This document shows positions 7,731 through 38,257 of a stretch of 46,451 nucleotides of DNA, one piece after another. The notes beneath the pieces are model-generated. The model was not told where the DNA came from, searched no databases, and saw only the letters and a program-made list of their open reading frames with translations. Position 1 is the stretch's first letter. Each line of letters begins with the position of its first letter. The translations under genes and the position numbers were made by a program. This stretch comes from a virus. The stretch is taken from positions 1-46,451 of the IMG/VR virus record IMGVR_UViG_3300035698_010566. One strand, 5' to 3'.

Positions 7731-7740
7731 ACGCCCACCG

Positions 7741-9611: not shown

Positions 9612-9644
9612 GGGTTCCTCTCTGGGGACTCTACTGTGCTGCCT

Positions 9645-9651: not shown

Positions 9652-9697
9652 ACAGACAACGGGGGCACGAAAAAATCCAGAACGAGTATCTAGAGGC

Positions 9698-18715: not shown

Positions 18716-19849
18716 CTATACCCCCAGCGAGAGGTTGTTTGTTCCGGCGAGTGCAACGGCACCAGGCACTGCAAAAACAATGGAGAGGGAGATAGGTTCA
18801 CCCGAGGCATTGGACACCACCACACGCACCATGAACGCAGTGTGCTCTGTCTCGTGGGGCAGCACTTCGACTGACAGGATGGATGCCAGTCGCTCTTTCA
18901 ACGAAACCCGCTGGAAGTTCGCCTGCTCCCCCTGAAGCCGCTGCATCTTCTGCAGGGCCCCCACCACGTCTTCCCGGAGGAGAGTGGAAATTGCACCCAC
19001 TGCCTTCGTTCCAATTCGAGAGGAGATCCTGCACCCATAGGCAGGGTGGTAGGGGTTGGACGCAGACACCGTTAGCAGAATCTTCAGGGAAGCCTGATAG
19101 AGAAGGTCCTCACCCTCAATAATGACCAGTTCACCCTGTGGGTCGAACCGCCAGTCATTCTCGGTACCGCGACCCTGGCACCGAGGACACCTTGCAGGAG
19201 CGGTCACATAGGTCATTTTGAATGTGGGGTTGGTGCGAACCTGATCCACAAACTTCGGGTACAGAGCATGGGAGATCACGAGCCCATCTCGGTTCACGAG
19301 GGGCAGCACGTCGCCCCGCCTCTCCATATGCCACCCAGGGAACAACAGTTTGCCCCGGATTGCCCGCTGACCTGTGAACCCCACAGAGGCAGCAGCCCGC
19401 CCCGACACGAGGATGCGAGACTCCTTCCCGATGTTTGCAATGTCCGTGAACACAAGGTGCCCATTGTCATTGGCCACCACAATGTCTGTGAAGGAGCTGC
19501 GGAACAACCGCACGAGAGTGTCAGTGTTGACACGCCTGCCGAAAGGAAGGGTGAACGTGCGTGTCTCTGTGCTGCTCGTCACAGTCAGCACATTAGATTC
19601 CACCGACACCCCACCGTCCGACACACAACCCTGAATGTAGAACGGCCCAGACTCTGCCCCAATGATGGAGGCTTGGGAATGAAGCCCTGACGGAGGGATG
19701 TAATACTCGTTGTTTGCCAACACCCTCAGGAGCGTCCGATTTGCCACCGGAGCCACCGGAACCAGGGACATCCGGTCTGACCCCAAAGCCACGGGCTCCT
19801 CGATGACGAGGTGCGGACACACATGACCAAGTTGGAACTCCTGTGACAC
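18716..19849 (-). CDS. gp25-like baseplate wedge protein with N-terminal extension
   Basis: A 377-residue protein. The C-terminal part (about 245-360) resembles gp25/W-type wedge proteins: DLLYQASLKILLTVSASNPY, HPAYGCRISSRIG, REDVVGALQKMQ, then alternating strands (VEVLPHETEHTAFMVRVVV). The N-terminal 200 residues are a beta-rich extension with a flagellin-like module (84-173: TFTLPFGRRVNTDTLVRLF, HLVFTDIANIGKESRILVSG, FTGQRAIRGKLLFPGW). A CPRCQGRG half-zinc motif at 221-228 links the two. Position just before the J-like gene supports the call, since gp25 and J are adjacent in most contractile-tail clusters. It starts with GTG because an in-frame TGA precedes it immediately and AGAGG lies seven bases upstream. 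Confidence 0.6.
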   Translation of the reverse strand: MSQEFQLGHVCPHLVIEEPVALGSDRMSLVPVAPVANRTLLRVLANNEYYIPPSGLHSQASIIGAESGPFYIQGCVSDGGVSVESNVLTVTSSTETRTFTLPFGRRVNTDTLVRLFRSSFTDIVVANDNGHLVFTDIANIGKESRILVSGRAAASVGFTGQRAIRGKLLFPGWHMERRGDVLPLVNRDGLVISHALYPKFVDQVRTNPTFKMTYVTAPARCPRCQGRGTENDWRFDPQGELVIIEGEDLLYQASLKILLTVSASNPYHPAYGCRISSRIGTKAVGAISTLLREDVVGALQKMQRLQGEQANFQRVSLKERLASILSVEVLPHETEHTAFMVRVVVSNASGEPISLSIVFAVPGAVALAGTNNLSLGV

Positions 19850-19895: not shown

Positions 19896-20723
19896 TTACA
19901 GGGCTGTGTCGCTCTCCTCGGGATCATCAGACAGCAGGAAGGGGTATCTCCCCAAGGCCTCGCCATTCTCAGACGTGAAGTCCGGGGTGTTCGTCTCATC
20001 CATTTCGTAGAAGATGGAATCAATGGCAGCCACAATCTGTGAGACCGACAGGTTCTTGTCATACTGGTCTTCATCAATCCCCGGAATGGTGGGAAGGACA
20101 CCAGCAATCGCCATGGTGATGTCAGTCAGCTCCTTCAGGAACTGCTCACGCAGGTCACAGAGCTTGAGGATGCGCTGCTCAATGGCATCCCTCTTGTTGC
20201 GGATCTCCGGGTTCACCCAGTTGCGTCCTGCCGCCACTCTCCCTGCCACACGGGCGTTTTGCTGCTGCTTACGCCCCCCTGTTCGAGCAGGTGCATATTT
20301 CTTGATGTTGACGTAGCCGCCCTCGTAAGCTTCTCCCGTGTTGTAGGAGCCAGTCTTCGGGGCGATTGATCCATTGTAGGGTTGGGTCTCTGTCCCCTCT
20401 TGATCGTCACCCGTGGAGTCAAGGATGACAGTGTGATCCGGGGTCAGGAACAGGCTGATGTCGAAGGGGTTGCCGCCCTGGGCCACATAGGCCTGTATGA
20501 GCTTCCCCAGGGAGGACCCCGGAGTCACAGAGAACCCGTCACGTTTCTCCGTGACATCCCCGTCGGCATTGGACGTAAACATGACCGTGACATTCCCGAT
20601 GCGGACAAGCTCTGCCTGGATGACACGGATCCGCTCAGCGGAGTCCCGGCGCTCCTCCAAGATGAACTTGCGGAACGCCTGCCAGGAGCCTTGTCGGAAT
20701 GAGCCTAGCCAATGAAAAGACAT
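19896..20723 (-). CDS. Putative baseplate or tail structural protein
   Basis: A 275-residue protein, MSFHWLGSFRQGSWQAFR to DDPEESDTAL. The N-terminus is helical and charged (AFRKFILEERRDSAERIRVI), followed by a mixed segment that ends in a basic linker (TGGRKQQQNARVAGRVAAGR, about 146-166). A long helix follows (NKRDAIEQRILKLCDLREQF), and the C-terminus is acidic. Its ATG lies two bases from the stop of the 835-residue gene. Because it sits between spike and wedge genes it is probably virion-associated, but no known family is recognised. Confidence 0.6.
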   Translation of the reverse strand: MSFHWLGSFRQGSWQAFRKFILEERRDSAERIRVIQAELVRIGNVTVMFTSNADGDVTEKRDGFSVTPGSSLGKLIQAYVAQGGNPFDISLFLTPDHTVILDSTGDDQEGTETQPYNGSIAPKTGSYNTGEAYEGGYVNIKKYAPARTGGRKQQQNARVAGRVAAGRNWVNPEIRNKRDAIEQRILKLCDLREQFLKELTDITMAIAGVLPTIPGIDEDQYDKNLSVSQIVAAIDSIFYEMDETNTPDFTSENGEALGRYPFLLSDDPEESDTAL

Positions 20724-20725: not shown

Positions 20726-23233
20726 CTACTCCACCTCGGGGAAGATCGCCTGGAGGATCTCAACGATGCTCGCAGGGAGACCCCCAGCAACCAACACCAC
20801 ACCCGCACCGTAGTCGTCAGAGCCGTCCGTGGGCTTGTTGCCGGCGTTGACCAGACCAGAGAGGATGCCGTCTGTCCCCTGCCCCGTCACCACAAGGGCT
20901 GACATCTGCGGGAGGTCGAATCCTGACAGGGATGCAATCAGCCCGTCGATTCTGACAACCAGAGCCTGCATTTCCAGGATGCGTGCCTCCAGGGATTCGA
21001 TGTAGTCCGTAATCACATCAGTGACGCCCTTTGTCCCCTGCTGTGTTGCTTGCGCCCAACCGAGAAGAGCATCCAGAGCGGAGTCAACTGCGGGGAGTCC
21101 TTGGGGGAACAGTCGAAAGGTGTCCCATGCCCCTGCCCCAGGTTGTGCGGGGAGGGTCGTTGTGGATGCTGCCACGTTGAGAATCAGGAGGGCAGCAGTG
21201 TATACGTCATCTGGAATCATATTGCGGCAGAAATCAATGACGGGGGTGCTGCCAATCTGGAAATCGTAAATGATGGGGGAGAAATCCGCAGACCCCTGCC
21301 CGACAAGCCAACTCCCTTCACTGGTGTGGAACTTCTCCATGAAGCCGGGGAGACGCTGGATATCAGAATCCCCATAAAGGTACTCTGCCTCGGTTGCCAC
21401 TTTGTTCCGCTGTGTCGACAACGGGTTGAGTGCCAAACCCACCCGTGCCCTGCTGTCCCCCAAAGACTCCAGAATCGTGGTGTCTGGAAATCTCGGGTTG
21501 GCATCTGACCACTTGAATGACAAAAGTGCGGAAGCATTGCTAACAAGCTCTGCCTCAACACCCAAGGGGCCTGTCTTCTTGTAAAGGACGTTTGCATAGG
21601 AACGGCATCGCCGCAGCAAGTTCTGTCGGAAATCTTCGGGTGCGATCCCTTGACGGTCGAAGTACCCAGACCGGAACATCTCGGGGAAGATGAACCTCGC
21701 AATGTCTTCCAACCCTGTCCCCTTGAGCCCCTTCCCTGGCTGGAAAGGCCACCAAGTCAAACCCACAGGCGTGACGACTGCTTTTGCCAAAGGGAGGTCA
21801 GACCGACTCAAGATCATTACAGCAAGTGCTGTTGCCACCACGTCCAGATAGTTCTGCGTCGTGCTCGACGGGAACGTCAGAGTGAGGGGATCACTGGGGG
21901 CTGTCTTTGCACCAGCCCCGAAAGGAGCTTCCAAAAACACTGTGCCCGTAGTTTGAGCTGCGGATGCAATTGCCGTCGCATTTGTGGTCCAGAAGTTCAG
22001 GGGCTCTGACACCGGCCCTGTCTTCCCAACCCCATTCGCAGTGACTACTGTAGATGCCACAGCATCGTTCACGGCAGACACTCGAATCTGCACTGTTGTG
22101 GCAGGACCATCCCCCACAGGAATCACAGAGGGATCCCCGTTGGAATCGTAACTCACCTCAGCTTCCCAGGGCATATCCTCCAGATCGAGAGTCGCGGCAA
22201 ACCCCTGACCCGGGGCGTCCGTGTCGAAGAATCCTGCCTTCACAAAGAAGGTACGTTGGAGCAGATATTTGCCATCTGTGGTCTTGAGCAGATCGAGGGG
22301 GATCGGGGTGTTGTCCGCAGAATCCCGGTAGGCATAGAGAAGCCCCTTGTCGACGTCGGGGGGCAATGTCATTGCGTCCAGATCGCCAATGTCGATCATG
22401 TCCGACCCCCCATAGAGTCGGAACGGCAGCTGCGTTTTGGGGTCCCGTATGAGCCCCTGCACCCGATTCGAGCCCGGGGAGTTGCTTGCAGGGTAGGTGT
22501 CGTAGGCAAGGATGAGACCACCCACCACCGTGGACACTTCAACCAAAAAGCCCTTGGGGGAGAGTGCTGGCCAAGCTACCGCCACCCGTGAGGATGTCAT
22601 CTGCCAACGCACGTTGGCCCTGTTGGGGACCCCGCCACGCCCCAACGGCTTGAAGGTGGACAACGAAGCCCCTTCCCTGCCGTAGGTTGCCTGCAGCCCC
22701 AGGGGCGGCGTAGAGGAATCAATGGGAGTAGGTTTCCCGAAGAAGGCAAGAATCTTCTCGATGGCTTCGACCATCTCGCCAGCACCCACAGTACCTGCCC
22801 CGGTGTAGAGGAAGATTCCGATGGTTGCGGTGCGAGACGAGAAGTCCGGTCGGGTGGGGTCCTGGCGATTGACCAGACGCCCGATCATTCGTCTTTCGTA
22901 CCCCGCATACCCCCCGAGAATCGTGGTGTATTTCGGGGGATCCAGAAGACTATCCGCAGCAAAGTAGACGCCGATCTGCCGGATATCCCCAAGCAAACCC
23001 TCAACCTCCTCCACCAACGCTTCTATGATGGCTTTGAGAGGATCGAGAATCCCGATTGAAAATGCCTTCATCACTTGCAGAATAGTGAGTAAAACATTGA
23101 GCACCGCAACCAGTGCAGTGGTCAAAGATTGCGCAGTGTCCGCAATTCCTGTGAAGGTGCTTGGGAGCCCAGGCTGGACAGTCGCCCAAGAGCCTACAAG
23201 CTGTTCGCTATCGCCAGTTTCCGGAGAACCCAA
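20726..23233 (-). CDS. Large baseplate/tail structural protein, unknown family
   Basis: An 835-residue protein starting at TTG: GGAGGGG lies eight bases upstream and no in-frame ATG occurs until about residue 55. Residues 36-76 are an unusually hydrophobic helical stretch (LTTALVAVLNVLLTILQVMK, then GILDPLKAIIEALVEEVEG). About 195-250 looks like an FnIII-type strand pattern (VRWQMTSSRVAVAWPALSP). Further mixed regions follow, and the C-terminus (about 700-800) has helices such as AQATQQGTKGVTDVITDYIE. The hydrophobic start could be a membrane-active or buried trimerisation helix. Flanked by small baseplate genes; role inferred as virion structural. Confidence 0.65.
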   Translation of the reverse strand: MGSPETGDSEQLVGSWATVQPGLPSTFTGIADTAQSLTTALVAVLNVLLTILQVMKAFSIGILDPLKAIIEALVEEVEGLLGDIRQIGVYFAADSLLDPPKYTTILGGYAGYERRMIGRLVNRQDPTRPDFSSRTATIGIFLYTGAGTVGAGEMVEAIEKILAFFGKPTPIDSSTPPLGLQATYGREGASLSTFKPLGRGGVPNRANVRWQMTSSRVAVAWPALSPKGFLVEVSTVVGGLILAYDTYPASNSPGSNRVQGLIRDPKTQLPFRLYGGSDMIDIGDLDAMTLPPDVDKGLLYAYRDSADNTPIPLDLLKTTDGKYLLQRTFFVKAGFFDTDAPGQGFAATLDLEDMPWEAEVSYDSNGDPSVIPVGDGPATTVQIRVSAVNDAVASTVVTANGVGKTGPVSEPLNFWTTNATAIASAAQTTGTVFLEAPFGAGAKTAPSDPLTLTFPSSTTQNYLDVVATALAVMILSRSDLPLAKAVVTPVGLTWWPFQPGKGLKGTGLEDIARFIFPEMFRSGYFDRQGIAPEDFRQNLLRRCRSYANVLYKKTGPLGVEAELVSNASALLSFKWSDANPRFPDTTILESLGDSRARVGLALNPLSTQRNKVATEAEYLYGDSDIQRLPGFMEKFHTSEGSWLVGQGSADFSPIIYDFQIGSTPVIDFCRNMIPDDVYTAALLILNVAASTTTLPAQPGAGAWDTFRLFPQGLPAVDSALDALLGWAQATQQGTKGVTDVITDYIESLEARILEMQALVVRIDGLIASLSGFDLPQMSALVVTGQGTDGILSGLVNAGNKPTDGSDDYGAGVVLVAGGLPASIVEILQAIFPEVE

Positions 23234-23236: not shown

Positions 23237-23461
23237 TCACACCCCTCCGCCATGCTTGAGCCGCTGGGCAGTCACATGGAGATCAGCCACCGTCTCTTTG
23301 TCCTTCTGCACCTGATCCAGAAGAACATCTCTCAGCTTGAGGAGCAGCACTTTGGACTTCTCCGCGTGAATTGGAGAAGCTTCACCACCTGGGGTGCCTC
23401 CCCACTGGTCATGGGGAATGCCCAGAGCGTCCAACTTGGCTCGCATCTCCTCTAGAGTCAC
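23237..23461 (-). CDS. Small helical protein after the giant gene
   Basis: A 74-residue protein, start GTG with AGGAG about seven bases upstream. It opens TLEEMRAKLDALGIPHDQWG, an SAP- or helix-hairpin-like amphipathic start, then has a Gly-rich turn and a long helix (KSKVLLLKLRDVLLDQVQKD, about residues 35-66) with coiled-coil periodicity. Its TGA is three bases from the TTG of the 835-residue gene. It could be a small chaperone or an adaptor between giant and downstream proteins; this is inference from position. Confidence 0.55.
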   Translation of the reverse strand: MTLEEMRAKLDALGIPHDQWGGTPGGEASPIHAEKSKVLLLKLRDVLLDQVQKDKETVADLHVTAQRLKHGGGV

Positions 23462-23497: not shown

Positions 23498-26400
23498 TCA
23501 GGCGTCATCCAAACCCTCCTTGAGACGAAGGGCCTCTTCCTGCTCTTGGATTCTGCGGGGAAGTTCCACATCGAACCTTTCGATTGCCCTCAGGGTACCG
23601 TTGACCAGCTCTGTTCGGATCTTGATCCATGCAAATCGCAGTTGCCGGAACCTATCCTCACGGTCGAGCACACCCTCCACGCGATCTGGCAGAACCGGGC
23701 GCCCCGAACCTGCCACCATGTTGAAGGTTGCTACTCCAGGAGCATCAGAAGCGAATGATGAGTAGGGAGTCTGTCCCACCGTGTTGGGCGGCACAGCATA
23801 GTCGAGGCGATAGTCAAGCACCCAATTACGGCGGTCCAGGACCGACAAGCAATCCGACACGTTCTCGAAGGGGGAAACCCCGATGAGCCCCTCCAGGCCC
23901 TCAATCAGTGCGTTGCTGGGGACTCCCAAGCCCGCCTGTGGGTTCGTGGGACTTCCCACATTTGCAGCGTGCTCATCCCTCTGGAAGACGAAGTAGTCCC
24001 CACTCTTGCCCCCAGACACCACCGATGTGATCTCCTCCATCCATGAGAGCATCCTCTCCCTGATGAACAGCACCAAATCAACAGCATCTTCGGAGAACAG
24101 ATTCGAGGGGCGGATGATTCTGTAGCTGAACGGAGACACAGAATTAGCACTGCTCCTGTAGGAGTCAGCACCATCAGCCAGAGCCGTCATACGCAGGTCC
24201 ATCTGACCTTCAGGAGCACCTGAGAGCCCCGTAGACACCACAGGAAGCACAGCGAATTTCTGGTTGACTACACCATTTTCACCAAACACCACAGGAGCAG
24301 ATGCGTCCCCACTGAATTCTGTGACACCAGTGACAACCAGATTGCTAGAGTTGACCTCCGTGATCTTGTAGAATCCCCGGTTGTCGTCCAGCACATCAGG
24401 CCCTCCTGCGATGTGTGAGGCGCGTCCTGGCACCGACTGGTCCCCAAACGGGCGGACACCCGCCTCCGATGGCGTTGCCGGCCCTGTGGGGCCCTCAAGC
24501 TCCCCAGCAGGGTCTACCACGATGATGTCCCCAACCCGAACCCCCAAGGCAGGGAAGTCCACTGTGCCATCGAGGTCCGTCAAGACGTTCAGAGCTGCCA
24601 CGCTGCCACCGGCAGTATTCGGAACAGCAGTCTGGGTGAACACCACAGAGTCCGTGACGAGGCTGAGCAACTCCTCATTGGACTGCTCGTGTGGGACAGG
24701 TGCCTGCCGCAGGTACACCTCGAAAACATCACCGAAAACGGGTGTCACAGAGAAGCCCGGAGACCGAAGCCGGAGAGTAGTGGCACCCACAACCCCCACT
24801 TCTGCGGTATCCACCACGTTGCCATTGATATCAACCAGACGAACCACGTCCCCTGCGTTCACATTCACATCAGGGTTGTTGAAGTTCCCCAGCTGTGTCC
24901 CTGTTCCGGAAGCTGTGAGAATCCGTGTTGCAGCCACATAGGTCTGCACAGTGCCTACTCGGATCTCGTAGGCATAGCGGAGGGGTGTGAGGTTGGCAGT
25001 GATGTCCCCAATGGCAGCATGGAACCTGCGAATCCTCCTCACGGTGAATGCCAGATTCTCTGGGGAAGGGCCCGAGAACAGGGAAGATGCCCGCATCCCG
25101 ATCTGGTCATCTGCCCCGGCGGTGTGCCCTGCACCTGCATCCACGACATGAGGCACAGCCTCATCCAAGGGTCGGGTGGGCACCGGGAACGAGGGCTCAA
25201 GGTAGACACCGGCAGGAGACACAAATCCCAGGACACCGGCTGCATAGTCCCCGTCTGCATCCACAGTGTCTGTCGTGATGAACTTGTCAGCGGGAAGGAC
25301 ACAGACAACGCCAGAAGTTGCACTCCCCCAAAGGGCAGCGTTCCCATGGATTTGCTGCCACTGTACACCCGTGATCTGGGTCAAGTCGATGTACTCAGCA
25401 ACGGCACCGTAAACCACTGCATCGGGATCCGCCTGGAAGACCTTATTGTCCACAGGGGTCGCAATCCCCACACCCAATTCACCAACCCCAAATCCCGGGT
25501 CAGTGTTGTCTGTCAAGGTGCCACTGTAGGAGAACGTGACGTTGTACGGGAGACCCGCTGTCACGTCACCCGTCAGAAGGTTGTTGCTGACTGTGACCTT
25601 AATGAAGCCACCAATGGTCGTTGCCCCAGAGGGAGCACTGTCAAGCCCAACCACGTTGTTCTGTGGGAACGGTGCCGGGAATGTGCCAATGGGGAGGTAT
25701 GCCATCCCTGACACCTGCAACCCCACCACTGCAGCCGCAAAGAACGTGGCGTCCGCAATGAAGGCTGCCGCCGCATCCAAACCAGACCCTGTGGTCAATG
25801 TGAACACGTCAGCCACCAGAGCCGTGTAGGCCATGCTGACAACAGTCGTGGGATCCAAGGGGTCCGGAATGACATACACACGCCCGGCGGCTGCCCAGGC
25901 CGTGCCAGTGTCCGTCACAGTAACCGTAAGACCCACAGCGTTGTAGGACACCACTGTGGGGAACACGACATTCAACCAACCCGGGGATCCTGCCCTAACA
26001 GAGACAGCAGCCTCTTGAACCTGATCTGCACCCACAGTGCCGTTGGTGGGGAGAGCGTATTTCACCAGATAGGTCCCTGTCTTGACCGCTGCATCCTGTG
26101 GTGCTGTGGCGGACTCCTTGACTGTCACAATGTCCCCAGCAACCACGTCGACAATAGCCCCCGTACCCACTGTGATATTCAGGAGACTCCTCTCCCCGTC
26201 CAAACAGAATGCCGTTCCCGACAGGATGTCCCCTGCAGCATCTTCCTCGGAAGACGGAATCCCCGCCAGAGCAATACCAGAGACATCGCCCACAGGGACG
26301 TTCGCAGCCTCCCAACTCATTGCCTTCACAGTGCCCAGTTCATCACCAGCACCAGAGACTGATGCCGGGGAGAAGGTGCCCACTGCGGAGCTTGCCAACA

Positions 26401-29400
26401 CCCGACGCAGGAACGTGAGAGGGAGAGCCCCGTTGATGGTGGCAGGGCTGTTGACTGTGATTCCTGAAACCCCGGATCCCGTGACCTCCCACACCGAAAG
26501 CCCAGCCTCAATGACTGTGGCACCCGCGTTTGTGGTTCCCCGCTCTGGGGCAGTGGACAGGTCTACTCGCTCGTTGAAGGTGAGACGATCTGCACCCACC
26601 CATGCCGTAACCTCACCCGTGCCATTGCCCACACCGGGGCTCGCTCCACCCAGACTCGTGATCAGGGCATTTGTCGTTGCATCAATGTAGGAGTCAAGGG
26701 TGATGGTGAAATCGTAGGTCACCCCCAGGTTGCCCACCCATGCCAGGTTGGTCGTGACCACAATAGTCTTCTGGGTCACCGTGATGCCGATCACAACCTG
26801 ACCGCCGGAAGCCGCCCCGTTTGCCTCTGACACTGTGAAAACGATCTCCTCTACAAGTGCTCCGGGTGTGCCTGAACCCCCATTCTCATAGGCCCTGATG
26901 ACAATGGCATTGTCTGCCCCTGTCAGGAACGTCGCCAAGCCGCCGGCATTGCCCACTGCCCCGTCGTTGAGGAACAGAGAGCCCATCGAGCTGATGTCGA
27001 AGGTCGTGTTGAGGAGAGGCCCTACCGGTGCCGTCGTGATGATCATCCCCGATGCAAACGTCGAGGACACATGTGCCATTGCATTGTCGAAAGTGTGCTT
27101 GAGAGTGAGACCTTCACGAGAACTCGCCACGAACCTCGGGACTTCCACAGAATCGGAAGCCACTGCCGCAACAGACAACATACCCGTTGCCCCAACCTGG
27201 ATTCCTGTCTGATCAACCTCAACCAGAAGGAGATCGTAGGGTGCCACATCCCCGATGCCGCTATGGGGCACATATGCGCCCGCAGTTGCCACAGGGGTGA
27301 AGTCCAACGCCGTAATCAAAGTGGCAGGAGGATCTGTGACGGTGGCAGAGTCCGAGATCAACCCATCGTCAACCACGACCTCATTAGGATAGACCGCTTG
27401 CGGAGTGGGGGAATCCGTCTGAAGGACCGTCACGAACGCGGCACCCACAGAACCCAGGCGCTCAAGCTCGGTGTTGCTGAGGGTCAAGTACGGGATGCTG
27501 TAGTCCCCACTGTCGTTAGTAGACAACCCTTGCAATGCCGGAAGCTCCAAAGGATCCCGGCTCGTGTTCGCAAACTCCACGTCCGCTTCAATGGCAGACA
27601 TGGGGATGGGTGTCTTCTGCCCCAGGATCTCCTTTAGACCGAAGGGGCTGGGGTCTGCGAAGCTGGGGAGGGTCTTGTCTGTGAAGAGGCCTCTACGCAT
27701 CTGCACACCCACATCCAACGTGGGAGACGCCGCCGCAAACTGCTCCATCTCGTCCACTGTGGGCGGGTCTGAGAAGGCACTGCTATCCGTTGAAGCCGGG
27801 GGGACGGTGTAGAGAGTGTCGCCCCGATCAAGATCCACGGGCGTGCCTTGGAGGGTCCCAGCACCAAGTGCCAGAACATCAGAACCTGCAAGTGCGTTCA
27901 GCTGGTCATCTGAAAGGATGAGGACACAACCCTTCTGGACGATGCCAATGAACACACCACCGAACACGGGGTCAATGTCCCGGCCACCGCCAAACAGGGC
28001 ACGGAACACCTGATTTGCATTTCCTGCCCCTGTGGTCTCCCCTGAGGGAAATCCAAATGCCACCTGTTGCCCTGCCCTGAACCTTGGGTTGGACAGCTCA
28101 GCATCCCCAGTGATCAAGTCAGCGGTGTCACTGTCTACAGTCTGCTCAGACAGGAAACGGTCGAAATCCGGAAGCCCCGTATCGGGGTCAGTCGGGAACT
28201 CAGACAAGTCCCCCGGAGTCGCCAGCACCGTGGCAAAACCCACAGTCGTAGTGTAGGTGGGATCACCGAGGAACAGAGCGTCAATCTCTGGGAACCCTGT
28301 GGGGCTGTATGCCCACACACGAGCACGCGGGAGGCGCTCACGGGGTTCGACATCAGACAGGTTTTGGAGGGGGCCCAGTGCCGGGTTGCCCACCACCCCG
28401 ATAGTCCTGCCAAATGTGCTTCCTGTGGCAGAATCCCCCAAGGGATCCGTGACCATGCGCCCAAACGAGAACACCCCTGTGTCTCCTGTGGCAAAGTTTG
28501 CCAACATGCCAGGGAACACTGTGGTGAACGCCAGAGTAGCCTCAGGGAACAGCCTCGAAAGGCGGCTCGGTTCCCACATGGGCTGGAACACACCGTGGAC
28601 GGAGAAGGTAGGCAGTGGGAACGCAGAAGTGAGCTGTGGCCTCAATGCACTTGTGAGAACCCTGTCGTCCATGTCGTTGGTGACCAGAGCCTTCTGCCCA
28701 TCCATGTAGTACCGCAGAACGTAGGGATCCATCGCATCCCCACTGACCTCAAAGGTTGCAGGGTCCTGCGAGGCTGTGAGGGGGTCTACAAGGGGGTCTA
28801 CCCCTGTAGAGCCGAAGGTCCCGTTTGCTGCCAGGAACACGTCGTACCAAACATCCCGGAGGTTCAGATCCCCTTGAATCTCATCCTCGTAGCCAGGAGG
28901 TGCATACGTCTTGTCGTGGCCAATGAAGAACCGGAACTTGCCGTCGGAGTCTCCCACGACCTTGCCAGAGATCGTCTCGTTCACCTGCTCGAATGAAACG
29001 ATCACCTCATTGTAGAACTCGATGAAGGTGCGGGCTGCCCTGTCCTGGTCGGTGAGATCCCTGCGTTCGGATTCGAGACCCACAGAGCCTTGGTCTTGGT
29101 TGCCGGTGCTGAACCCAGATGTGACAACTGGGCCCCCAGCAGGCGTCTGGGTTGCCAAACGCTGCACGACCAACTCTGCAACCTCTCCCATGTACTCCTG
29201 CAGCGCCACAGTGCGGTAGTAGAAGCTGTCGGGGTTGCGGAAAGTGTAGGTCGCCAGGAGCGTCGAACTGAGGACACCATTCTCCTCAGAAGGGGATGCC
29301 AAGTAGGAGTATCCAGCCCTGTAGCGGGGGTACACCAGGGTACCGTCCACAGGGAAGGGTCCAAGTGCCTTACGCTCGGTATACGAAAACAGAAGGTACT

Positions 29401-32400
29401 CACGAGGTCCCAGGGGTGCTTGGTTGGGGTCAACCAGACGCATGGAACCATTGGCGGGGTCTACCTCGTAGTCCACACCGGGCACGAGAGTACGGCCAGG
29501 AAGGACAGTGCCGCCCTCGGACTCCCCAAAGAGCACCAACTCCGTGGACTCTGTTGGCACGAAGGGGTTGATACCCAAGAAGTCCCGGGCGCTGGGAGCG
29601 TAGATGGGCCTTGCTGACAGCTTCACTGTGTCAGACGTTGCGTTGAACCCCGTGAGTACAGGACTCGTGAAGCTGACCGTGGTGGATCTTCCATCGTCTG
29701 TCAGCTCGGAACCCGACACGATGAGCGGGTAGCCTCCGATCTCACAGAGATGCCCCGCCACGGCAAACCGCGTCAGGTCGCCCTGGAAGACTATCGAATC
29801 CATCCCCCTGTCCACAGGTTCGTAGGGGGTGGCCACTGTCAGAAGGAATCCAGGGTCCCCTCCAGCTGCTGTGCCGTCTACATCCTCTGTAACAGCAACA
29901 GCAGACAGCAGCGAAACCACATCATTGGCAGGGGCACGGCTGCCAGCTTCCTCCTCTGCAGGAGGCCAAACCACCACAGTCGTCTCGTCCGTAGGCGCAG
30001 TATAAACCGCAGATTTGATGTAGAACGGGTGGGCACCCAGGCGAAGCAGTTTGCCCGATGCCATGTTCGATGTCTGGTCCCCTGCGAGGGTGAAGGTATC
30101 CTGCTCTGCTTCCAAGAAGAACGGGGGGCGCCACACGGGAATCGTGGACGTGTTGTATGCCTGCTCCCCCCCAAACGCCTCGTAGACACCATAGTTGACT
30201 TCCACGACAGCGGAAGCAGCCACAGCGTTGTTGAACGTCAGGATTGAATTCTGGAAAGCGACCTGTGTCGTGTTTCCGAAGTTTTGGAGCTGGCTGTCCA
30301 CCCAGATGAAGGTGTCCACCGTGCTGTCAACGGTACGCACTGTGGGGTTCACAGTGTAGGTGGTGGCATCCACCCGTGTTGCTGTCTCCAGCCGCACGAT
30401 GAGAGGCAAGAACTCCACGATCTGCGTGGTACTCGCAAGGTTGCCCTCGCTGTCCGCCTGATAGTAGCTCGCCTCAATGATCTGCCCTTCACGCAAGGGC
30501 TCCTGGAAGTAGAACGACCCGATGAGGGGACTCACCACCACGTCGAGGGACTCCTCCGTGATCATCTTCTCTACGAAGTAGCCCCGTTCGAGGGCATATG
30601 CCGCCATGTCAACAGCGGAGTAGTTGAGGTAGCCCGTTGCTGCGTTGTACTCTGCTTCCAGGGACCCCAGATCGGTGGGATCTAGGAATTCCTCATCATA
30701 GGACACGAAGGACTGTGCATGGTTCGCAAGGGTGTCCTCCCCGAACTTCAGCTCACCTGTGGTGGTCAGGTACTCGATCTGGTCGCCCAGAAGGGGAACA
30801 GTGAACGCCGCCACACCCGTGAGATCCACACCCTGCGTGTAGGGGGTTGCCCCCACACGAATGGAGAAAGCTGCTGTCGTGAAGTGGATGTCCGTGCTGT
30901 CGGGAACGAACAGGCCGTTGATCATCTCTCCGAGGCCTGCCCCACGCACAAGAGGTGTCAGGCTTGCTTCAAGGTTGCCGATTGCCAACCCAAACCTGAC
31001 TGCAACGGCACGCCCACGCTGGTATGCATCTGCCACCACCGCCTGATTCCGAGCTATGGATTGAGCTGCAGCATCCGCAGGGATGAATCCCACAGTGGAC
31101 AAAGCACGAATCTCGAAAGGCTCAGTGGGCAGGTGGTTGAAAGGTTCGTACACCACGTCTGCCACGCGGGCAGGATCATAGGCAGACGCAGGAATACCCG
31201 TGTAGAGCTGCCAGGAGGCATAGGAGGCTCCGTTCGCGGGTCCAGCATCCGAGGGGAAGGGCACGGTTGTCAGCACCGTGAGAGCCGTCTCAGACGTAGC
31301 ATCGGACGCCACGATGAATGACCCTTCTGAATCTCCGTTGGTCACCTTGAGCCGGTAGCCAGCCAGCACAACATCCGACAGGAATGTAGCGTTGATGTCT
31401 GTGAAGGTCGTGGTGCCCGAAGCAAAGGAGCCGGCTGCCCCTTCTGCCACCATGCCGCCAGTCACAGAGATCGGAGTCACGACACCCGCAGAACCCCCGG
31501 AGGGGATCAGGTAGTCAGTGCCCTCTGTCTGAAGAACGAACGTCTGCCCATCCTCTGCGAGGTACATGCCATTCCGGGATGCCACAGCAGGGTGGAGAGT
31601 GTCTCCTAGAACCCCTGGCTCTCCCAGAGAGAGGTTGCCGGTGACCTGTTCGATACGGGCAGAGACTGATCCCTGCTCCAGCCAGGACAGACGCCCTTCC
31701 CCAAAGTCATAGAACACGTCCACCAGATTGTGGAGGTACCTGTAGTTGATGCCGTCCACGACCTGGAAGAACACGTCTTCGTCGTAGCCAGCCACATCCT
31801 GAAGGGGAGGGTTCGTGACCGAGAAGTTGAACATCTGGAGGATATTTTCGGAGAACACTGTGTTGCTGAAGCTCCCCCGGGCCTTCACATCAGGGGCATC
31901 CGTGCTCCGGTCTCGATTCTGCGGACTCCGGTAGACGCCCAAGGACACACCGTTGTCCGGGAGCCAGCTCGTGTTGCTGCTGGGGTCCTCGACTCGCCAT
32001 CCGGGGAGAACCCCCAGGATTCTGGCAGCAGAGATATTCCGGTCAGTAAAAGCACCCGTCAACCCGAACCCGATCTCCACAGAACCCGTGGTGATGTCGC
32101 CCGCCCCCAAGACCAAGTAGCCCCGGATTGCCTGGGCCTGCCCGGTACCGGTGATCACCAGATCGATGCTTGCCGCAACCGCAGCGGCCGTGAGTGTGCC
32201 CGCAACGGCAGTCCAAACATAGGGGTTTCCGTCGATGTTGAAATACAGCGTCTCCCCACCTTCGAAGGTGAAGGGGCCCACGTTGCGGGAATACAGTCGG
32301 GCTTCCCCAGCGAACACAGCAGGGGTTACGTCAGCCTGGAGGTAGTAGAGAGGCAATCCGTTGAAACGGGAACGATCCTGTCGACTCAGGGCGATCTTGG

Positions 32401-34141
32401 AGCCTGGGTCACCTGCCACCAACTCGCGGGCAATGAGTGCCCTCCCCTTCGGGATGTTGAACGAGAACCTCGGGAGGTCGGACTCGAATTCCACCACTTC
32501 AAGGTCTTCGAGAGCCGCGGGGACTCCAAACAGCAGAGTGTCACCCACCCCACCGATAGTGCGAATGAGCCCACAACCATTGGGACGTGTCGTGGGCACG
32601 GCAGAGGCGTTGGGAACATCGCCTGTGGAGTCTGGTACATGAAGCACCCCAGACACACCGAGCCCCAACACTCCACTGGACGGGTCTTGGAGAGGTTCCC
32701 CGTCAGGTAGGAACAGGTCTCCCTTTGCAGTCACAGTCGTCGCGGCACCCGCGCTGTCCACGAGCTGCACAGGCTCTCGCGTAGACAGGCTTTGCCACGT
32801 CATGGACACGCCATCGCAGTAGACCGAATTGCTCAGGTACTGGATGTCAAAGCCACCAGCATCGGGATCAGCCTTGCTGGTATCCAGCACACTGAACTTC
32901 AGCTTCCCGGTTGTTCTTGACCACCCCACCTCACCTTCGTTGACGGTGTATGCCGCCAGAATTGCATCACTGTCCACAGCAGACGGGCTGAGATAGCGTC
33001 GGAAGCCCAACCGCACGAGAGGCCGGTCTGTGGGCCCCGGAACAGGGCTGAGGAACAAAGGTTCGGTCTGTGCGTCCTTCACAGGCCCAAGGTCACCATT
33101 CGAGTCTTTGGCGTAAGACTCGGGGTTGTACCACACCACCTGACCGGCATAGCTGGCTATGTACGCAGGGTTGAACTGCAGGATGCCATTCGTGACACCG
33201 ACCACAGCATCGGGAACAGCCCCCACGAACGCATATGTCGTCTCCACTTCTGCATCTGAAACCACATTCACCAACGGAACCAGGGCCGTTGCATCCGGTC
33301 GGGACCCCAACCGCACAAGGGCAAAGGAGTCAGAATCTGCCGGGTCTCCTGGCAGCGAGTCACCGATAGGGAACCGACTCGGGTGGGGGACAAGGACATA
33401 GTCCCCACCCTCGGTCAGAACACCGGAGTTCACAGGAGCAGAAGCCTTGTAGGGCTCCCACCGTTGAGTCTTCCCGTTCCACCCGAACCGGCGAAAATCT
33501 GGGTCATTCCGTGTCCACCAGAACCGAGCGGCAGCCACGATGTAGTCAACCCTGACAATGGTGTCACCGCGGAGAGTCGACACGCCCCCGTCAAGGGTTG
33601 TGGGAGTCGGATTGGCAGGATATCCCACCACAACAGCAGGAAGGACCACAACACCAGCATCTGAGTCCTGGCTATCGAAGTCATTTGCAGCATCAGGACC
33701 CGCCGAGATCTCATTCCCGTTGTCCCCCCTCCGGATAGTGACAAGGCGCACCTGTGCAATCCCTCTGCCTCCGGGATCAGTGATCACAAGCCGGGTTGTC
33801 CCGTCTTCCAGAGTCTCCAGACTCACGTCGTTGTAAACGTCCAGAGTGCCTGTAGGGATGAAGCCTGACTCCGCAGGGGCAGAGGCTGTCACTGTCCACA
33901 CGGGCGTCTCTAGGAGTGCCAGAGACGACGTGTTAGCTGCCCAGAGGAGGTACTCCTCATCCTGAACCGCTGTCCGGTACTGATCTGCTGCAACCTCCAC
34001 GAAAGGCGCGGCATAGTCATAGCCCGCCGGTAGAGGCTTGTGATCCCGCAGAACACCGTTGTCTGTGGTGGCAGTTGTGGTGGCATTTGCGGGGGCCGTT
34101 CGAGGAGCCCGCAGCACAAAACCATTGAAGTTGAAACCCAT
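23498..34141 (-). CDS. Giant multidomain virion protein (3547 residues)
   Basis: An uninterrupted 10.6-kb reading frame encoding 3547 residues, rich in Asp, Gly, Thr, Val and Pro, with very few cysteines. It has no signal peptide or membrane helix. Many successive beta domains are visible. Around 660-760 is a flagellin-like module (GPFTFEGGETLYFNIDGNPY, later FTDRNISAARILGVLPGW). At about 1347-1417 and 1447-1515 two related domains follow each other (DTFTLAGDQTSN.. and DSIVFQGDLTRF..). Around 1690-2200 the sequence is more helical and Trp/Phe-rich. The last 60 residues form a charged helix (FAWIKIRTELVNGTLRAIER, then RIQEQEEALRLKE). It lies in the middle of the baseplate cluster, its start overlapping the stop of the small Gly/Val-rich gene (TGATG), so it is almost certainly structural: perhaps a whole baseplate arm or a long tail-tip sheath. 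No homologue can be named from sequence alone. Confidence 0.85.
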   Translation of the reverse strand: MGFNFNGFVLRAPRTAPANATTTATTDNGVLRDHKPLPAGYDYAAPFVEVAADQYRTAVQDEEYLLWAANTSSLALLETPVWTVTASAPAESGFIPTGTLDVYNDVSLETLEDGTTRLVITDPGGRGIAQVRLVTIRRGDNGNEISAGPDAANDFDSQDSDAGVVVLPAVVVGYPANPTPTTLDGGVSTLRGDTIVRVDYIVAAARFWWTRNDPDFRRFGWNGKTQRWEPYKASAPVNSGVLTEGGDYVLVPHPSRFPIGDSLPGDPADSDSFALVRLGSRPDATALVPLVNVVSDAEVETTYAFVGAVPDAVVGVTNGILQFNPAYIASYAGQVVWYNPESYAKDSNGDLGPVKDAQTEPLFLSPVPGPTDRPLVRLGFRRYLSPSAVDSDAILAAYTVNEGEVGWSRTTGKLKFSVLDTSKADPDAGGFDIQYLSNSVYCDGVSMTWQSLSTREPVQLVDSAGAATTVTAKGDLFLPDGEPLQDPSSGVLGLGVSGVLHVPDSTGDVPNASAVPTTRPNGCGLIRTIGGVGDTLLFGVPAALEDLEVVEFESDLPRFSFNIPKGRALIARELVAGDPGSKIALSRQDRSRFNGLPLYYLQADVTPAVFAGEARLYSRNVGPFTFEGGETLYFNIDGNPYVWTAVAGTLTAAAVAASIDLVITGTGQAQAIRGYLVLGAGDITTGSVEIGFGLTGAFTDRNISAARILGVLPGWRVEDPSSNTSWLPDNGVSLGVYRSPQNRDRSTDAPDVKARGSFSNTVFSENILQMFNFSVTNPPLQDVAGYDEDVFFQVVDGINYRYLHNLVDVFYDFGEGRLSWLEQGSVSARIEQVTGNLSLGEPGVLGDTLHPAVASRNGMYLAEDGQTFVLQTEGTDYLIPSGGSAGVVTPISVTGGMVAEGAAGSFASGTTTFTDINATFLSDVVLAGYRLKVTNGDSEGSFIVASDATSETALTVLTTVPFPSDAGPANGASYASWQLYTGIPASAYDPARVADVVYEPFNHLPTEPFEIRALSTVGFIPADAAAQSIARNQAVVADAYQRGRAVAVRFGLAIGNLEASLTPLVRGAGLGEMINGLFVPDSTDIHFTTAAFSIRVGATPYTQGVDLTGVAAFTVPLLGDQIEYLTTTGELKFGEDTLANHAQSFVSYDEEFLDPTDLGSLEAEYNAATGYLNYSAVDMAAYALERGYFVEKMITEESLDVVVSPLIGSFYFQEPLREGQIIEASYYQADSEGNLASTTQIVEFLPLIVRLETATRVDATTYTVNPTVRTVDSTVDTFIWVDSQLQNFGNTTQVAFQNSILTFNNAVAASAVVEVNYGVYEAFGGEQAYNTSTIPVWRPPFFLEAEQDTFTLAGDQTSNMASGKLLRLGAHPFYIKSAVYTAPTDETTVVVWPPAEEEAGSRAPANDVVSLLSAVAVTEDVDGTAAGGDPGFLLTVATPYEPVDRGMDSIVFQGDLTRFAVAGHLCEIGGYPLIVSGSELTDDGRSTTVSFTSPVLTGFNATSDTVKLSARPIYAPSARDFLGINPFVPTESTELVLFGESEGGTVLPGRTLVPGVDYEVDPANGSMRLVDPNQAPLGPREYLLFSYTERKALGPFPVDGTLVYPRYRAGYSYLASPSEENGVLSSTLLATYTFRNPDSFYYRTVALQEYMGEVAELVVQRLATQTPAGGPVVTSGFSTGNQDQGSVGLESERRDLTDQDRAARTFIEFYNEVIVSFEQVNETISGKVVGDSDGKFRFFIGHDKTYAPPGYEDEIQGDLNLRDVWYDVFLAANGTFGSTGVDPLVDPLTASQDPATFEVSGDAMDPYVLRYYMDGQKALVTNDMDDRVLTSALRPQLTSAFPLPTFSVHGVFQPMWEPSRLSRLFPEATLAFTTVFPGMLANFATGDTGVFSFGRMVTDPLGDSATGSTFGRTIGVVGNPALGPLQNLSDVEPRERLPRARVWAYSPTGFPEIDALFLGDPTYTTTVGFATVLATPGDLSEFPTDPDTGLPDFDRFLSEQTVDSDTADLITGDAELSNPRFRAGQQVAFGFPSGETTGAGNANQVFRALFGGGRDIDPVFGGVFIGIVQKGCVLILSDDQLNALAGSDVLALGAGTLQGTPVDLDRGDTLYTVPPASTDSSAFSDPPTVDEMEQFAAASPTLDVGVQMRRGLFTDKTLPSFADPSPFGLKEILGQKTPIPMSAIEADVEFANTSRDPLELPALQGLSTNDSGDYSIPYLTLSNTELERLGSVGAAFVTVLQTDSPTPQAVYPNEVVVDDGLISDSATVTDPPATLITALDFTPVATAGAYVPHSGIGDVAPYDLLLVEVDQTGIQVGATGMLSVAAVASDSVEVPRFVASSREGLTLKHTFDNAMAHVSSTFASGMIITTAPVGPLLNTTFDISSMGSLFLNDGAVGNAGGLATFLTGADNAIVIRAYENGGSGTPGALVEEIVFTVSEANGAASGGQVVIGITVTQKTIVVTTNLAWVGNLGVTYDFTITLDSYIDATTNALITSLGGASPGVGNGTGEVTAWVGADRLTFNERVDLSTAPERGTTNAGATVIEAGLSVWEVTGSGVSGITVNSPATINGALPLTFLRRVLASSAVGTFSPASVSGAGDELGTVKAMSWEAANVPVGDVSGIALAGIPSSEEDAAGDILSGTAFCLDGERSLLNITVGTGAIVDVVAGDIVTVKESATAPQDAAVKTGTYLVKYALPTNGTVGADQVQEAAVSVRAGSPGWLNVVFPTVVSYNAVGLTVTVTDTGTAWAAAGRVYVIPDPLDPTTVVSMAYTALVADVFTLTTGSGLDAAAAFIADATFFAAAVVGLQVSGMAYLPIGTFPAPFPQNNVVGLDSAPSGATTIGGFIKVTVSNNLLTGDVTAGLPYNVTFSYSGTLTDNTDPGFGVGELGVGIATPVDNKVFQADPDAVVYGAVAEYIDLTQITGVQWQQIHGNAALWGSATSGVVCVLPADKFITTDTVDADGDYAAGVLGFVSPAGVYLEPSFPVPTRPLDEAVPHVVDAGAGHTAGADDQIGMRASSLFSGPSPENLAFTVRRIRRFHAAIGDITANLTPLRYAYEIRVGTVQTYVAATRILTASGTGTQLGNFNNPDVNVNAGDVVRLVDINGNVVDTAEVGVVGATTLRLRSPGFSVTPVFGDVFEVYLRQAPVPHEQSNEELLSLVTDSVVFTQTAVPNTAGGSVAALNVLTDLDGTVDFPALGVRVGDIIVVDPAGELEGPTGPATPSEAGVRPFGDQSVPGRASHIAGGPDVLDDNRGFYKITEVNSSNLVVTGVTEFSGDASAPVVFGENGVVNQKFAVLPVVSTGLSGAPEGQMDLRMTALADGADSYRSSANSVSPFSYRIIRPSNLFSEDAVDLVLFIRERMLSWMEEITSVVSGGKSGDYFVFQRDEHAANVGSPTNPQAGLGVPSNALIEGLEGLIGVSPFENVSDCLSVLDRRNWVLDYRLDYAVPPNTVGQTPYSSFASDAPGVATFNMVAGSGRPVLPDRVEGVLDREDRFRQLRFAWIKIRTELVNGTLRAIERFDVELPRRIQEQEEALRLKEGLDDA
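29780..30105 (-). repeat. Tandem domain repeat inside the giant protein
   Basis: Two neighbouring protein domains share the pattern D(T/S)(F/I)xxxGD(Q/L)T, then G(A/G)(H/Y)Pxx(I/V), then (E/T)TxVxxxxP, then DxVxL. Copy 1 corresponds to about 29880-30105 and reads DTFTLAGDQTSN, LRLGAHPFYI, TTVVVWPP, DVVSLLSA. Copy 2 begins near 29805 and reads DSIVFQGDLTRF, CEIGGYPLIV, TTVSFTSP, DTVKLSAR. Copy 2 extends beyond the lower boundary given here, towards about 29600. Seen at protein level; bases are diverged. Confidence 0.55.
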
Positions 34142-34719
34142 CAGACCACTCGGGAATAACTGGTTCCGGAAGCCGGGAGTGGGCTAGGAGGGCCCGTAAC
34201 CACCCCGATTCCGGTGCCGTTGAACAGCAGTGTTGCGATACCTGTACCGAAGACAACTGAGAGGGAGGGCATCAAAGGCCCTAGAATCGAATTGGACGCT
34301 GATGCTGCTGCAATAGCGGTGACAAGGGTAGCAGGATTCGACATCGCCACACGAGAAACATCAGTCCCCACACCCACCCCGATAGAGGGTCCCCGGTACA
34401 GACCAGCCGACGAAAATGCGCTGGCTACCCCAACCCCCACGGACACTGCCATTTCAGGCATCAGAGTCCCCTGAAGCCCATTCGACAGAGCCATTGCTGG
34501 AAGGATGGTGACATCGATGGGCACAACGAATTTCCCGGTAACCATCCCCGAGCCTGCGGTGCCCGTGGTGATTCCTGCCAACCCGAGGTTTGCAGGAATC
34601 TGGGCCCAAGTCGAGACGGCATCTGCCAGCATGATCACAAGAGCACGCCAGAGCTGCCCTTTGATCTGGGGGGACGCATTCAGGATGCTTCCCGCGATGA
34701 TATTTGCTGTGACCGGCAT
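34141..34719 (-). CDS. Small Gly/Val/Ala-rich protein between spike and giant protein
   Basis: A 192-residue protein almost free of charge, built from stretches of Gly, Val, Ala and Ile such as ITTGTAGSGMVTGKFVVP, MAVSVGVGVASAFSSAG, GPSIGVGVGTDVS and FNGTGIGVVTGPPSPLP. The ATG at 34719 (overlapping the spike TGA as TGATG) is preferred to a TTG one codon upstream. Repeated GxGxG(V/T)xxG strands suggest a compact beta structure; hydrophobic enough to be a membrane-touching tip, yet without classical 20-residue membrane helices. Directly follows the spike gene, where PAAR-like tip proteins often sit, but no PAAR histidines or cysteine are visible. Function unknown. Confidence 0.65.
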   Translation of the reverse strand: MPVTANIIAGSILNASPQIKGQLWRALVIMLADAVSTWAQIPANLGLAGITTGTAGSGMVTGKFVVPIDVTILPAMALSNGLQGTLMPEMAVSVGVGVASAFSSAGLYRGPSIGVGVGTDVSRVAMSNPATLVTAIAAASASNSILGPLMPSLSVVFGTGIATLLFNGTGIGVVTGPPSPLPASGTSYSRVV

Positions 34720-37091
34720 CAATTCACCCGCAAGGTTTGAATGCCAAGTACCCCGATGGCACTGAATGGGCGTCCTGTAATCGGGTCAATGCACCCATCT
34801 GTGAGAATGCCCCCAGGAATCTGTGGAGCCACAGAGTGCAATCCCACAGGCGAGTTGAACGCCACAGCAGCTGCTGTCACAGTGGCAGTGGAGCCCTTGA
34901 GAGACAGCAAACCTCCCGCAGAGATGGTTGTCGAGCCTGATGCTGCCACCAAGGTGTTCCCCGAAGGAGCGGAGAGTGAAGCTGACGTGGCGTCCATCCT
35001 CAGAGCCGTCGGGCCTGCAGAAGCCTCGAAGGACCCGGTACCCACATGGTACTTCTGACTGCCCACGATCACTGTTGTCTCATGCTCACCAGCTACCAGA
35101 GTCTCGTGCCTGTTCCCGGACTGGAGGAGGTACTTGTCTGCTGTGCCGCCCATGGCTGGGGTAGGCACAATGCTGATGTCTCGCAGAGGTCCGTTGGCAG
35201 GGCTTCCACCCTGCGGGCCAGAGAACGTGTAGCTTGCCTTACCTGCCACGTTCTGCATGTAGGTCGCAGAGGAGTGAGAGAGCCCCGCAGCAGACTGAAC
35301 GTGGTAGGACGCCTGTGCGTTGAAGTTGATCTCCTGCGTGTTGGTGATGTCTACGCGATTTCCAGACAGTGTGGTGGTCCTCGCCGCTGACAGGAGGGTG
35401 TTGGTGGCACTTTCGAGGATGAGACCAGGAAGGCCCCCCTCACCCGACCCTGTGTCCATAGTGCTCGCGACGTAACCGCCAACAGTCGTGGAACCACCCG
35501 CAAACAGACGCACTGCACCCTTGTCCGAGATCAGAGCGATGCCGATGTTGCTCTCGTTGGTCCCACGCTTGGAGCGGACACTCATCGCCCCGTCGAGATC
35601 GATTTGGGCACTCAACCCATCCGGGCGGGCCCCACTCCCCAGGTGCAACCCTGCACTGAGGGATGTCTCTACGCTCCATGCTGTCCCTGGGCCTGCCACG
35701 GACGCCATGAGGCGACCATCCTTCGTGACTGACCAGAAGGTGGGAGACCCACTCCCGAGGGGAGGCTTCATGCTGAACAGGGATGCAGCATGTTCCTCTA
35801 CGGTCGAACCAAGCCCCGAAACCATCTCGGGAGCACGAAGGTCACCATCGAAGATGACCGGGCGCAAGGGCACCCCATAGACCGACCGGCCCTTCTCGCT
35901 GTAGGGGTCGTTCCCGACCACCGTTCCCATCACCCACTCAATGAAAGGAGCATTGGCAGACACACCCATGGGGTCTGCATCCGAGGGATTGCCAGAGGGC
36001 AGCCGGTCAGCATCGAAACCGTCCATCTGCTCAGTGACCGGCAGAGTGCCATCCGAAGTATGTGCCAGCTCGATACGATGCTCTGTGAATGTGTTCTCGG
36101 TCGTAGATGCTCCATTCACCCCCGGTGTGGTGGACACGCGGAACAGTTGCTTGCCGCCGTACACCGTCTGATCAGTGGCACCGTCAATGGCATAGCCATC
36201 AGAAGTGACGAAGAGGCCCCGCTGCAGAAAATCATAAGGGTCCACATCCGATGAGAAGGCCAGCTCTGTGAGGGGAGTACCATCCTCATCCCGTTGGAAG
36301 ACCCCTGCAGGAGTCAGGTAGCCTTCTGGATAGGGGGCATCCCCGAGTTCCCCACCTTCGATCAGGTTGCCTTCCTCATCCACCTGTCGAGGAGCATCCC
36401 AGAAAACACCATCAGAGAACATCTGAGTTGGGAGGAAAGTGGCATCTCGCTGCACCATGCCGCTGTAGGCCCTGTAGCCCGCACCCGCATGGAATTGCTG
36501 GAGGGACCGGAACAATATCGCCTGGTCTTGGTCCCGAATCCGAAACTCGTTCCCCCTCCGGTTCGACAGCAGGACGGACTCATCCAGGCGCATATCAGCA
36601 CCTTGTGATGAGCTTGCCCCGATGTTCCCTGGATTCAGAGGGATGAACTTGTGTCGGACGCGCTCTGCGATTCCCTTGAGCTGTTCCTGTGTTTTGGGGC
36701 TCGTGCCAAACTCATCAGACCCGTAGGGCTGTGTGGGGAGCCAGTCTGCCCCTGCGGTTGCCCCTGGGACAAGCCAGCCCAAGACGAACGGGCGGCGGGT
36801 CTTCCCTGACTCTGCGGGACTCCACCCCACCACACAGATGTCTCCGGGCTCGGGAATAGCACCCAGGAAGTGTCGATTTCCTGCACCGGGAAAGACAATC
36901 TCCACCCCGGAATGGACAATGGACTCCCCGGTTTGCACAAGGATGTCCAGCTTGACTTCCTTGTAGTCAACCCGCGTGACCTTCGCGATGGCCATTGCAT
37001 AGAACTGGGCACCGGTTTGGGCGGAGGTAGCCGCCACTTGGGATGCCCCAAGCTCAGATCGGATCTGTGATGCAGAAATGGAGTCAGGCAT
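34719..37091 (-). CDS. Baseplate spike protein (gpV / gp5-like)
   Basis: A 790-residue protein. Residues 33-110 look like the N-terminal OB-fold of baseplate spikes: AMAIAKVTRVDYKEVKLDIL, VEIVFPGAGNRHFLGAIPEP, GDICVVGWSPAESGKTRRPF. These match the family pattern of a beta-barrel carrying a GDxVxV(G) turn. The middle (110-480) carries beta-rich insertions. From about 530 to 740 there are regular short strands (SAARTTTLSGNRVDITNT, QEINFNAQASYHVQSAAG, GNRHETLVAGEHETTVIVG) as in the triple-stranded beta-helix of gp5/VgrG spikes. No lysozyme domain is visible. It forms the piercing needle beneath the tube, docking on the hub encoded 2 kb upstream. ATG start four bases after the previous stop. Confidence 0.75.
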   Translation of the reverse strand: MPDSISASQIRSELGASQVAATSAQTGAQFYAMAIAKVTRVDYKEVKLDILVQTGESIVHSGVEIVFPGAGNRHFLGAIPEPGDICVVGWSPAESGKTRRPFVLGWLVPGATAGADWLPTQPYGSDEFGTSPKTQEQLKGIAERVRHKFIPLNPGNIGASSSQGADMRLDESVLLSNRRGNEFRIRDQDQAILFRSLQQFHAGAGYRAYSGMVQRDATFLPTQMFSDGVFWDAPRQVDEEGNLIEGGELGDAPYPEGYLTPAGVFQRDEDGTPLTELAFSSDVDPYDFLQRGLFVTSDGYAIDGATDQTVYGGKQLFRVSTTPGVNGASTTENTFTEHRIELAHTSDGTLPVTEQMDGFDADRLPSGNPSDADPMGVSANAPFIEWVMGTVVGNDPYSEKGRSVYGVPLRPVIFDGDLRAPEMVSGLGSTVEEHAASLFSMKPPLGSGSPTFWSVTKDGRLMASVAGPGTAWSVETSLSAGLHLGSGARPDGLSAQIDLDGAMSVRSKRGTNESNIGIALISDKGAVRLFAGGSTTVGGYVASTMDTGSGEGGLPGLILESATNTLLSAARTTTLSGNRVDITNTQEINFNAQASYHVQSAAGLSHSSATYMQNVAGKASYTFSGPQGGSPANGPLRDISIVPTPAMGGTADKYLLQSGNRHETLVAGEHETTVIVGSQKYHVGTGSFEASAGPTALRMDATSASLSAPSGNTLVAASGSTTISAGGLLSLKGSTATVTAAAVAFNSPVGLHSVAPQIPGGILTDGCIDPITGRPFSAIGVLGIQTLRVN

Positions 37092-38255: not shown

Positions 38256-38257
38256 AA

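Follow-up and report, generated by a model that had tools for sequence, protein, structure and literature searches.

The 10.6-kb gene in the tail cluster of IMG/VR virus record IMGVR_UViG_3300035698_010566 is a real, conserved gene of a previously unnamed protein family, and its product is probably a single-chain peripheral baseplate (wedge or arm) scaffold of contractile-tailed, often huge phages. The computed basis of this prediction consists of the gene itself, its family, its synteny and coevolution, the fold class, modules in common with wedge proteins and the sheath genes of its relatives. The family is new and the machine, a contractile-tail baseplate, is of a known kind; on the best reading, the giant protein looks essential and lineage-wide.

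Giant gene, its family and its gene neighbourhood

The window, that is, the whole stretch of 46,451 bases that was analysed, is a fragment of the virus record with a GC content of 57.6%. The giant gene runs on the minus strand from the ATG at 34141 to the stop codon at 23498 and encodes 3,547 aa with zero internal stops, exactly the unbroken frame described earlier from the sequence alone; its share of the window is 22.9%, in agreement with the earlier figure of about 23 percent. As its ATG overlaps the stop codon of the preceding 193-aa gene (TGATG), it fits a coupled operon gene. A chance frame or an assembly artefact was ruled out by full-length relatives with 34–55% identity in many other contigs.

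The search of IMG/VR with a five-member giant profile yielded 118 contig stretches and that with a middle-region profile 134, the largest giant-bearing contig having 618,736 bases. The dereplicated set comprises 44 full-length giants (<85% identity, 3,376–3,986 aa), which are collinear end to end with few indels. In relatives L033, L086 and L138 the giant is split into two frames, each time at another site, which was provisionally put down to assembly frameshifts. Among GenBank phages, LR745208.1 was the only match, over the full length. The profile search of genome contigs with the giant returned none, and the one with gpJ returned one MAG contig, carrying the same cluster including the giant. 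The terminase PF03237 was not found in the relatives, and no paper describing the family was found in the open-access literature.

The giant had no match in Pfam and PHROG even at E 1, and giant profiles found nothing among the PDB sequences; the earlier statement that no standard baseplate component is matched thus holds at the profile level. Thirteen diverse members searched against Pfam and PHROG gave nothing consistent and no fibre, chaperone, carbohydrate-binding or enzymatic Pfam family. Tail-fibre and minor-tail PHROG matches each occurred in a single member among the 13, and the repeat-rich N-terminal extension of L015 may be the source of some of them. An ordinary enlarged version of a known wedge protein, the case that the sequence-only reading had set against itself, did not emerge from the Pfam and PHROG searches and was rejected: there is no family match to the baseplate J, gpI or gp25 core, and only accessory modules are shared.

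Read along the minus strand, the genes of the window are ordered as tape-measure candidate, 221 aa, 373 aa, hub, spike, 193 aa, GIANT, 74, 835 and 275 aa, gp25, gpJ and gpI (Table 1), the 221-aa and 373-aa genes being tube-region genes. The giant had been placed between a spike-side small gene and the wedge genes, and this is where it lies, with the 193-aa gene before it and gp25 and gpJ after three intervening genes. A tape measure would be long, helical and encoded upstream of the hub; the giant does not fit, its models being all-beta. No gp8–gp12 relatives were recognised among the window genes scanned, though gp25, gpJ and gpI are kept. The hub of the window is split into three ORFs, and most relatives have a single protein of ~1,230–1,850 aa that matches all three. 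The N- and C-terminal stretches of the 835-aa partner look helical by eye, and 9/25 of its relatives weakly match tape-measure PHROGs, probably from helical composition. On the opposite strand, beside unassigned tail-side genes, there is a gene of the uracil-DNA glycosylase superfamily (9557–10306, plus strand; PF03167, E 4.7e-35).

Table 1. Coordinates of the giant gene, its regions and its neighbours in the window.
Feature	Coordinates	Strand	Basis or remark
GIANT, all-beta 3,547-aa protein with helical C-terminus	23498..34141	-	frame, relatives, models
Modelled region, residues 1-1180, predicted packed small beta domains	30602..34141	-	pLDDT 85.7, pTM 0.74
Module, residues ~606-725, related to gp25 fusion N-terminal domain	31967..32326	-	hhalign 91%, E 1e-6
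Module, residues 894-990, related to gpI tandem modules	31172..31462	-	70 gpI ORFs matched, best E 6.7e-13
First copy of the duplicated beta module, residues 1343-1420	29882..30115	-	hhalign probability up to 87%
Second copy of the duplicated beta module, residues 1443-1516	29594..29815	-	hhalign
Main length-variable, insertion-rich stretch, residues ~2330-2950	25292..27154	-	insertions, lengths, lowest conservation at residues 2600-2900; candidate exposed surface
Helical C-terminus, residues 3351-3547, very conserved (RERMLSWMEE... RFDxELPxR)	23501..24091	-	alignment, model
Tape-measure candidate, 1,081 aa	43187-46432	-	length, composition, position; window ends in tape measure gene
Hub, three ORFs (740, 307, 386 aa)	37095-41396	-	junctions near-touching or overlapping
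Spike, 790 aa	34719..37091	-	Phage_base_V OB domain, weak, PF04717 E 0.02
193-aa gene between spike and GIANT	34141..34722	-	slot of T4 PAAR protein gp5.4; without family match
74-aa small gene, member of conserved trio	23237..23461	-	recurring gene order
835-aa partner protein, almost always adjoining GIANT	20726..23233	-	loci of relatives
275-aa gene, same block as giant	19896..20723	-	recurring gene order
gp25-like sheath initiator, 377 aa, extra N-terminal domain	18716..19849	-	phrog_975 E 2.6e-5; PF10934 E 0.017
gpJ (gp6-like wedge), 1,159 aa	15198..18677	-	PF04865 E 5e-15
gpI (gp7-like wedge), 439 aa	13879..15198	-	phrog_1160 E 8.5e-4
gpI tandem modules common to GIANT	14287-14439 and 14101-14229	-	profile match

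The order hub–spike–193–GIANT–74–835–275–gp25–gpJ–gpI recurs in the relatives. Counted over dereplicated loci with enough contig room, the 193-aa gene is directly upstream of the giant in 37/41 loci and the spike close upstream in 32/39, while downstream the 835-aa gene lies at ≤600 nt in 36/42 and at ≤5 kb in 41/42, with gp25 further along in 27/40 loci and gpJ in 23/36. The giant was present at 59/61 loci found via the 835-aa protein; in one of the other two it lies at another place on the contig, and the second contig starts inside the 835-aa gene. Among the matches listed, every gpJ-bearing record of at least 100 kb contains the giant. As for the gpJ records without a nearby giant, two long ones carry it elsewhere, L271 has a cut-off copy at its end, and the rest are fragments. 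Several relatives (L002/L003/L009, L005, L014, L028 and L052) encode the giant at a distance from the spike or from the wedge genes, so the operon logic is not absolute. Relatives with hub–spike–gp25–gpJ and no giant nearby carry two unrelated genes between spike and gp25, which in L179 are of 299 aa (6276–7175) and 475 aa (7179–8606), the former resembling a sigma-type regulator by eye. The sequence-only reading had called such a protein unusual within an otherwise canonical order, which is correct in relation to T4- and Mu-type phages but not within this lineage, where the giant is the rule.

The tail type was derived from the relatives. The sheath model PF04984 gave nothing in 14 relatives, and the sheath C-terminal model PF17482 detected ORFs of 1,677–1,800 aa with recognisable sheath C-termini in five of the 14, one of them above the curated cut-off; a sixth sheath ORF occurs in L149. 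The tails are therefore contractile, with an unusually large sheath; for comparison, the table of PMC9230969 lists sheaths reaching at least 1,283 aa. The large sheath proteins, matched by PF17482 only, are located in L148 (3–5276, plus strand), L149 (12667–17997, minus strand) and L151–L155. The giant gene belongs to the spike–wedge cluster of a contractile-tailed phage, the sheath being known from the relatives and not from the window.

Modules and predicted structure

The module at residues 894–990 is related to the tandem modules of gpI and showed no significant match to other window genes. The gp25 fusion has an N-terminal domain to which the module at residues ~606–725 is related; in the hmmsearch over all ORFs, gp25-type ORFs rank best (from E 0.0015), and the match to a 1,768-aa sheath ORF is weak (E 0.046). 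A further beta module is duplicated within the giant (Table 1). With modules in common with gpI and with the gp25 fusion, the giant is built partly from wedge modules of the same tail.

The AlphaFold2 models, obtained with 44 relatives, cover residues 1–1180, composed of small beta domains, and residues 2380–3547 (pLDDT 82.1, pTM 0.63). Both are mainly beta, the one exception being the C-terminal end, which is helical beyond residue ~3351, as had been foreseen from the sequence (many beta domains with a helical C-terminus). The pTM of 0.74 suggests that the domains of residues 1–1180 are fixed in their packing and not strung out.

Comparison with known folds, the check that had been proposed together with structure prediction, was carried out with Foldseek for the same two regions and gave only small local matches, none of them a fold-level match to a known wedge or arm protein. 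The best PDB values were E 0.015 for the N part and E 1e-3, with a probability of 0.13, for the C part, and concerned small modules only. The N part gave small local matches to the sheath proteins of phages XM1, Milano, Mu and 7-7-1 and to endosialidase domains. Multi-domain models annotated as ‘Baseplate protein J-like’ reached E values down to 4.7e-7 at a TM of 0.07. The Foldseek matches are no evidence of overall homology.

Proposed role and alternative readings

Since gp25, gpJ and gpI are kept and the giant and its 835-aa partner are added, a peripheral baseplate protein is the most economical reading. In this model, the small beta domains of each giant copy would form a rigid array anchored on the conserved gp25–gpJ–gpI wedge core, and together with the 835-aa partner the giant would build the outer baseplate, for which T4 uses the separate proteins gp7, gp8, gp9, gp10 and gp11. 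The giant would also carry the true fibres and pass their binding signal to the wedge, leading to sheath contraction. Presence in the virion, a peripheral position, a six-fold copy number and signal transmission are predictions of this model. Among the three guesses made from the sequence, the baseplate arm, taken as a peripheral scaffold, fits best. Points against it are the Foldseek result, which gave no known wedge or arm fold, the relatives whose giant is distant from spike or wedge genes, and Tunturi_5, which has homologous gp25 and gpJ but no giant.

The main rival, which is disfavoured and which we regard as unlikely, is that the giant is a long appendage, i.e., a baseplate-attached tail fibre or whisker, whose string of beta domains extends to the host, with an adhesin at its end or along it. 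A long chain of beta modules is what such an appendage would have, and the weak ~90-residue Foldseek matches to endosialidase or tail-spike domains, those to tail fibre models, the PHROG matches in single members and the extension of L015 point in the same direction, as does the length variation of residues 2330–2950, where indels concentrate. Against this reading, the 44 collinear versions have few indels, and residues 3,300–3,500, at the C-terminus, are among the most conserved of the protein. Omega, which in most pairs peaks at residues of about 2400–3000, is 0.07–0.29 in 12 pairs and <0.5 in all computable 300-codon windows, which indicates purifying selection over the whole length; synonymous sites are saturated in all but a minority of the pairs, and the single unsaturated pair, L079/L084 (dS 0.36), gives 0.24. 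Moreover, the giant evolves in step with the core genes: its distances correlate with those of the 835-aa protein (r 0.92), gpJ (0.90), the 275-aa protein g275 (0.86), the spike (0.85), gp25 (0.82) and the hub (0.78), all with p 0.001, and its mean identity of 38.7% compares with 37.9% for the spike, 34.7% for the hub and 46.2% for gpJ. Neither a diversified tip, nor host-range-type variability, nor fibre or chaperone domains were seen in the giant, its members lack a carbohydrate-binding Pfam family, and the pTM of residues 1–1180 suggests packing. The overall pattern is that expected for a core structural component and not for a receptor-binding tip. The flexible appendage or adhesin considered in the sequence-only reading is thus opposed by collinearity, selection, the conserved C-terminus, coevolution and the predicted packing.

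It is less probable still that the giant is a collar, tail-tip or hub-side protein of three- or six-fold symmetry that sheathes the spike and the tube tip, like the lambda gpJ-type tip proteins. Its gene directly follows the spike and the 193-aa gene, and the best PDB fold matches of the C part are to the phage lambda tail-tip complex (8k35, E 1e-3; 8xcg, ~90 residues, probability 1.0). However, the confident lambda matches consist of one small barrel (TM 0.06–0.07), and F1-ATPase chains are matched over a similar length. No lambda gpJ-type hub-domain fold was seen in the modelled residues 1–1180 and 2380–3547, where confident matches span ~90 residues only. The shared modules link the giant to gpI and gp25 rather than to the hub or the spike, both of which exist as separate proteins. 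That the giant is a non-virion or ejected protein (an assembly scaffold or jig, or an effector injected along with the DNA) merely located in the late operon is very improbable: giant proteins of other phages can be ejected proteins, and virion proteomics for the lineage was not found, but the all-beta modular fold, the modules in common with structural wedge proteins and the lack of an enzymatic family speak against it.

The peripheral scaffold reading can be extended, tentatively, to the whole outer baseplate, which may have been merged into one giant chain with its 835-aa partner. This would be a separate evolutionary solution to T4-type complexity, made partly from the phage’s own wedge and possibly sheath modules, and a hallmark of a large lineage of uncultivated contractile phages reaching >600 kb. 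If so, a complex contractile trigger can be reached by a second route, and the giant could serve as a marker gene by which the lineage is recognised in metagenomes. With well over 100 contigs and no Pfam, PHROGs or PDB entry, the family represents a structural-type protein of huge phages that is both very large and conserved, and its description accounts for a gene left blank by annotation pipelines.

Comparison with known contractile tails

Compared with the simple P2/Mu baseplate, that of T4 contains five or more additional proteins, all of which are peripheral (PMC3004832); this favours a peripheral place for the giant. T4 gp7, gp8, gp9, gp10 and gp11 are large multi-domain additions to the P2/Mu-type core at its periphery (PMC3004832), as is proposed for the giant, and both are encoded in the late tail cluster, beside the spike and gp6-type genes. 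The giant is, however, one chain of ~3,500 residues where the T4 periphery consists of several proteins, and its gene precedes gp25 and gpJ, whereas the T4 peripheral genes follow gp6. No sequence similarity between the giant and T4 gp7–gp12 was detected, a comparison of low power, as gpJ and gp6, used as positive control, gave no match either. The gpI/gp7-like and gp25-like proteins of the same phages have beta modules in common with the giant but are eight- to nine-fold smaller, and the giant is without the core domain of gpJ, gpI or gp25.

The uncultured huge phage LR745208.1 (485 kb) encodes a full-length relative of 3,642 aa with ~34% identity, together with the partner gene; it is an unannotated record, and its trio lies away from the spike. 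The cultured Tunturiibacter phage Tunturi_5 (complete, 308 kb) has homologous gp25 and gpJ without the giant, and other large proteins (RCC1-annotated, 1,969 and 1,106 aa) are encoded upstream of its gp25. With gp25 and gpJ present and the giant absent in Tunturi_5, the giant was either added to, or lost from, a common wedge core.
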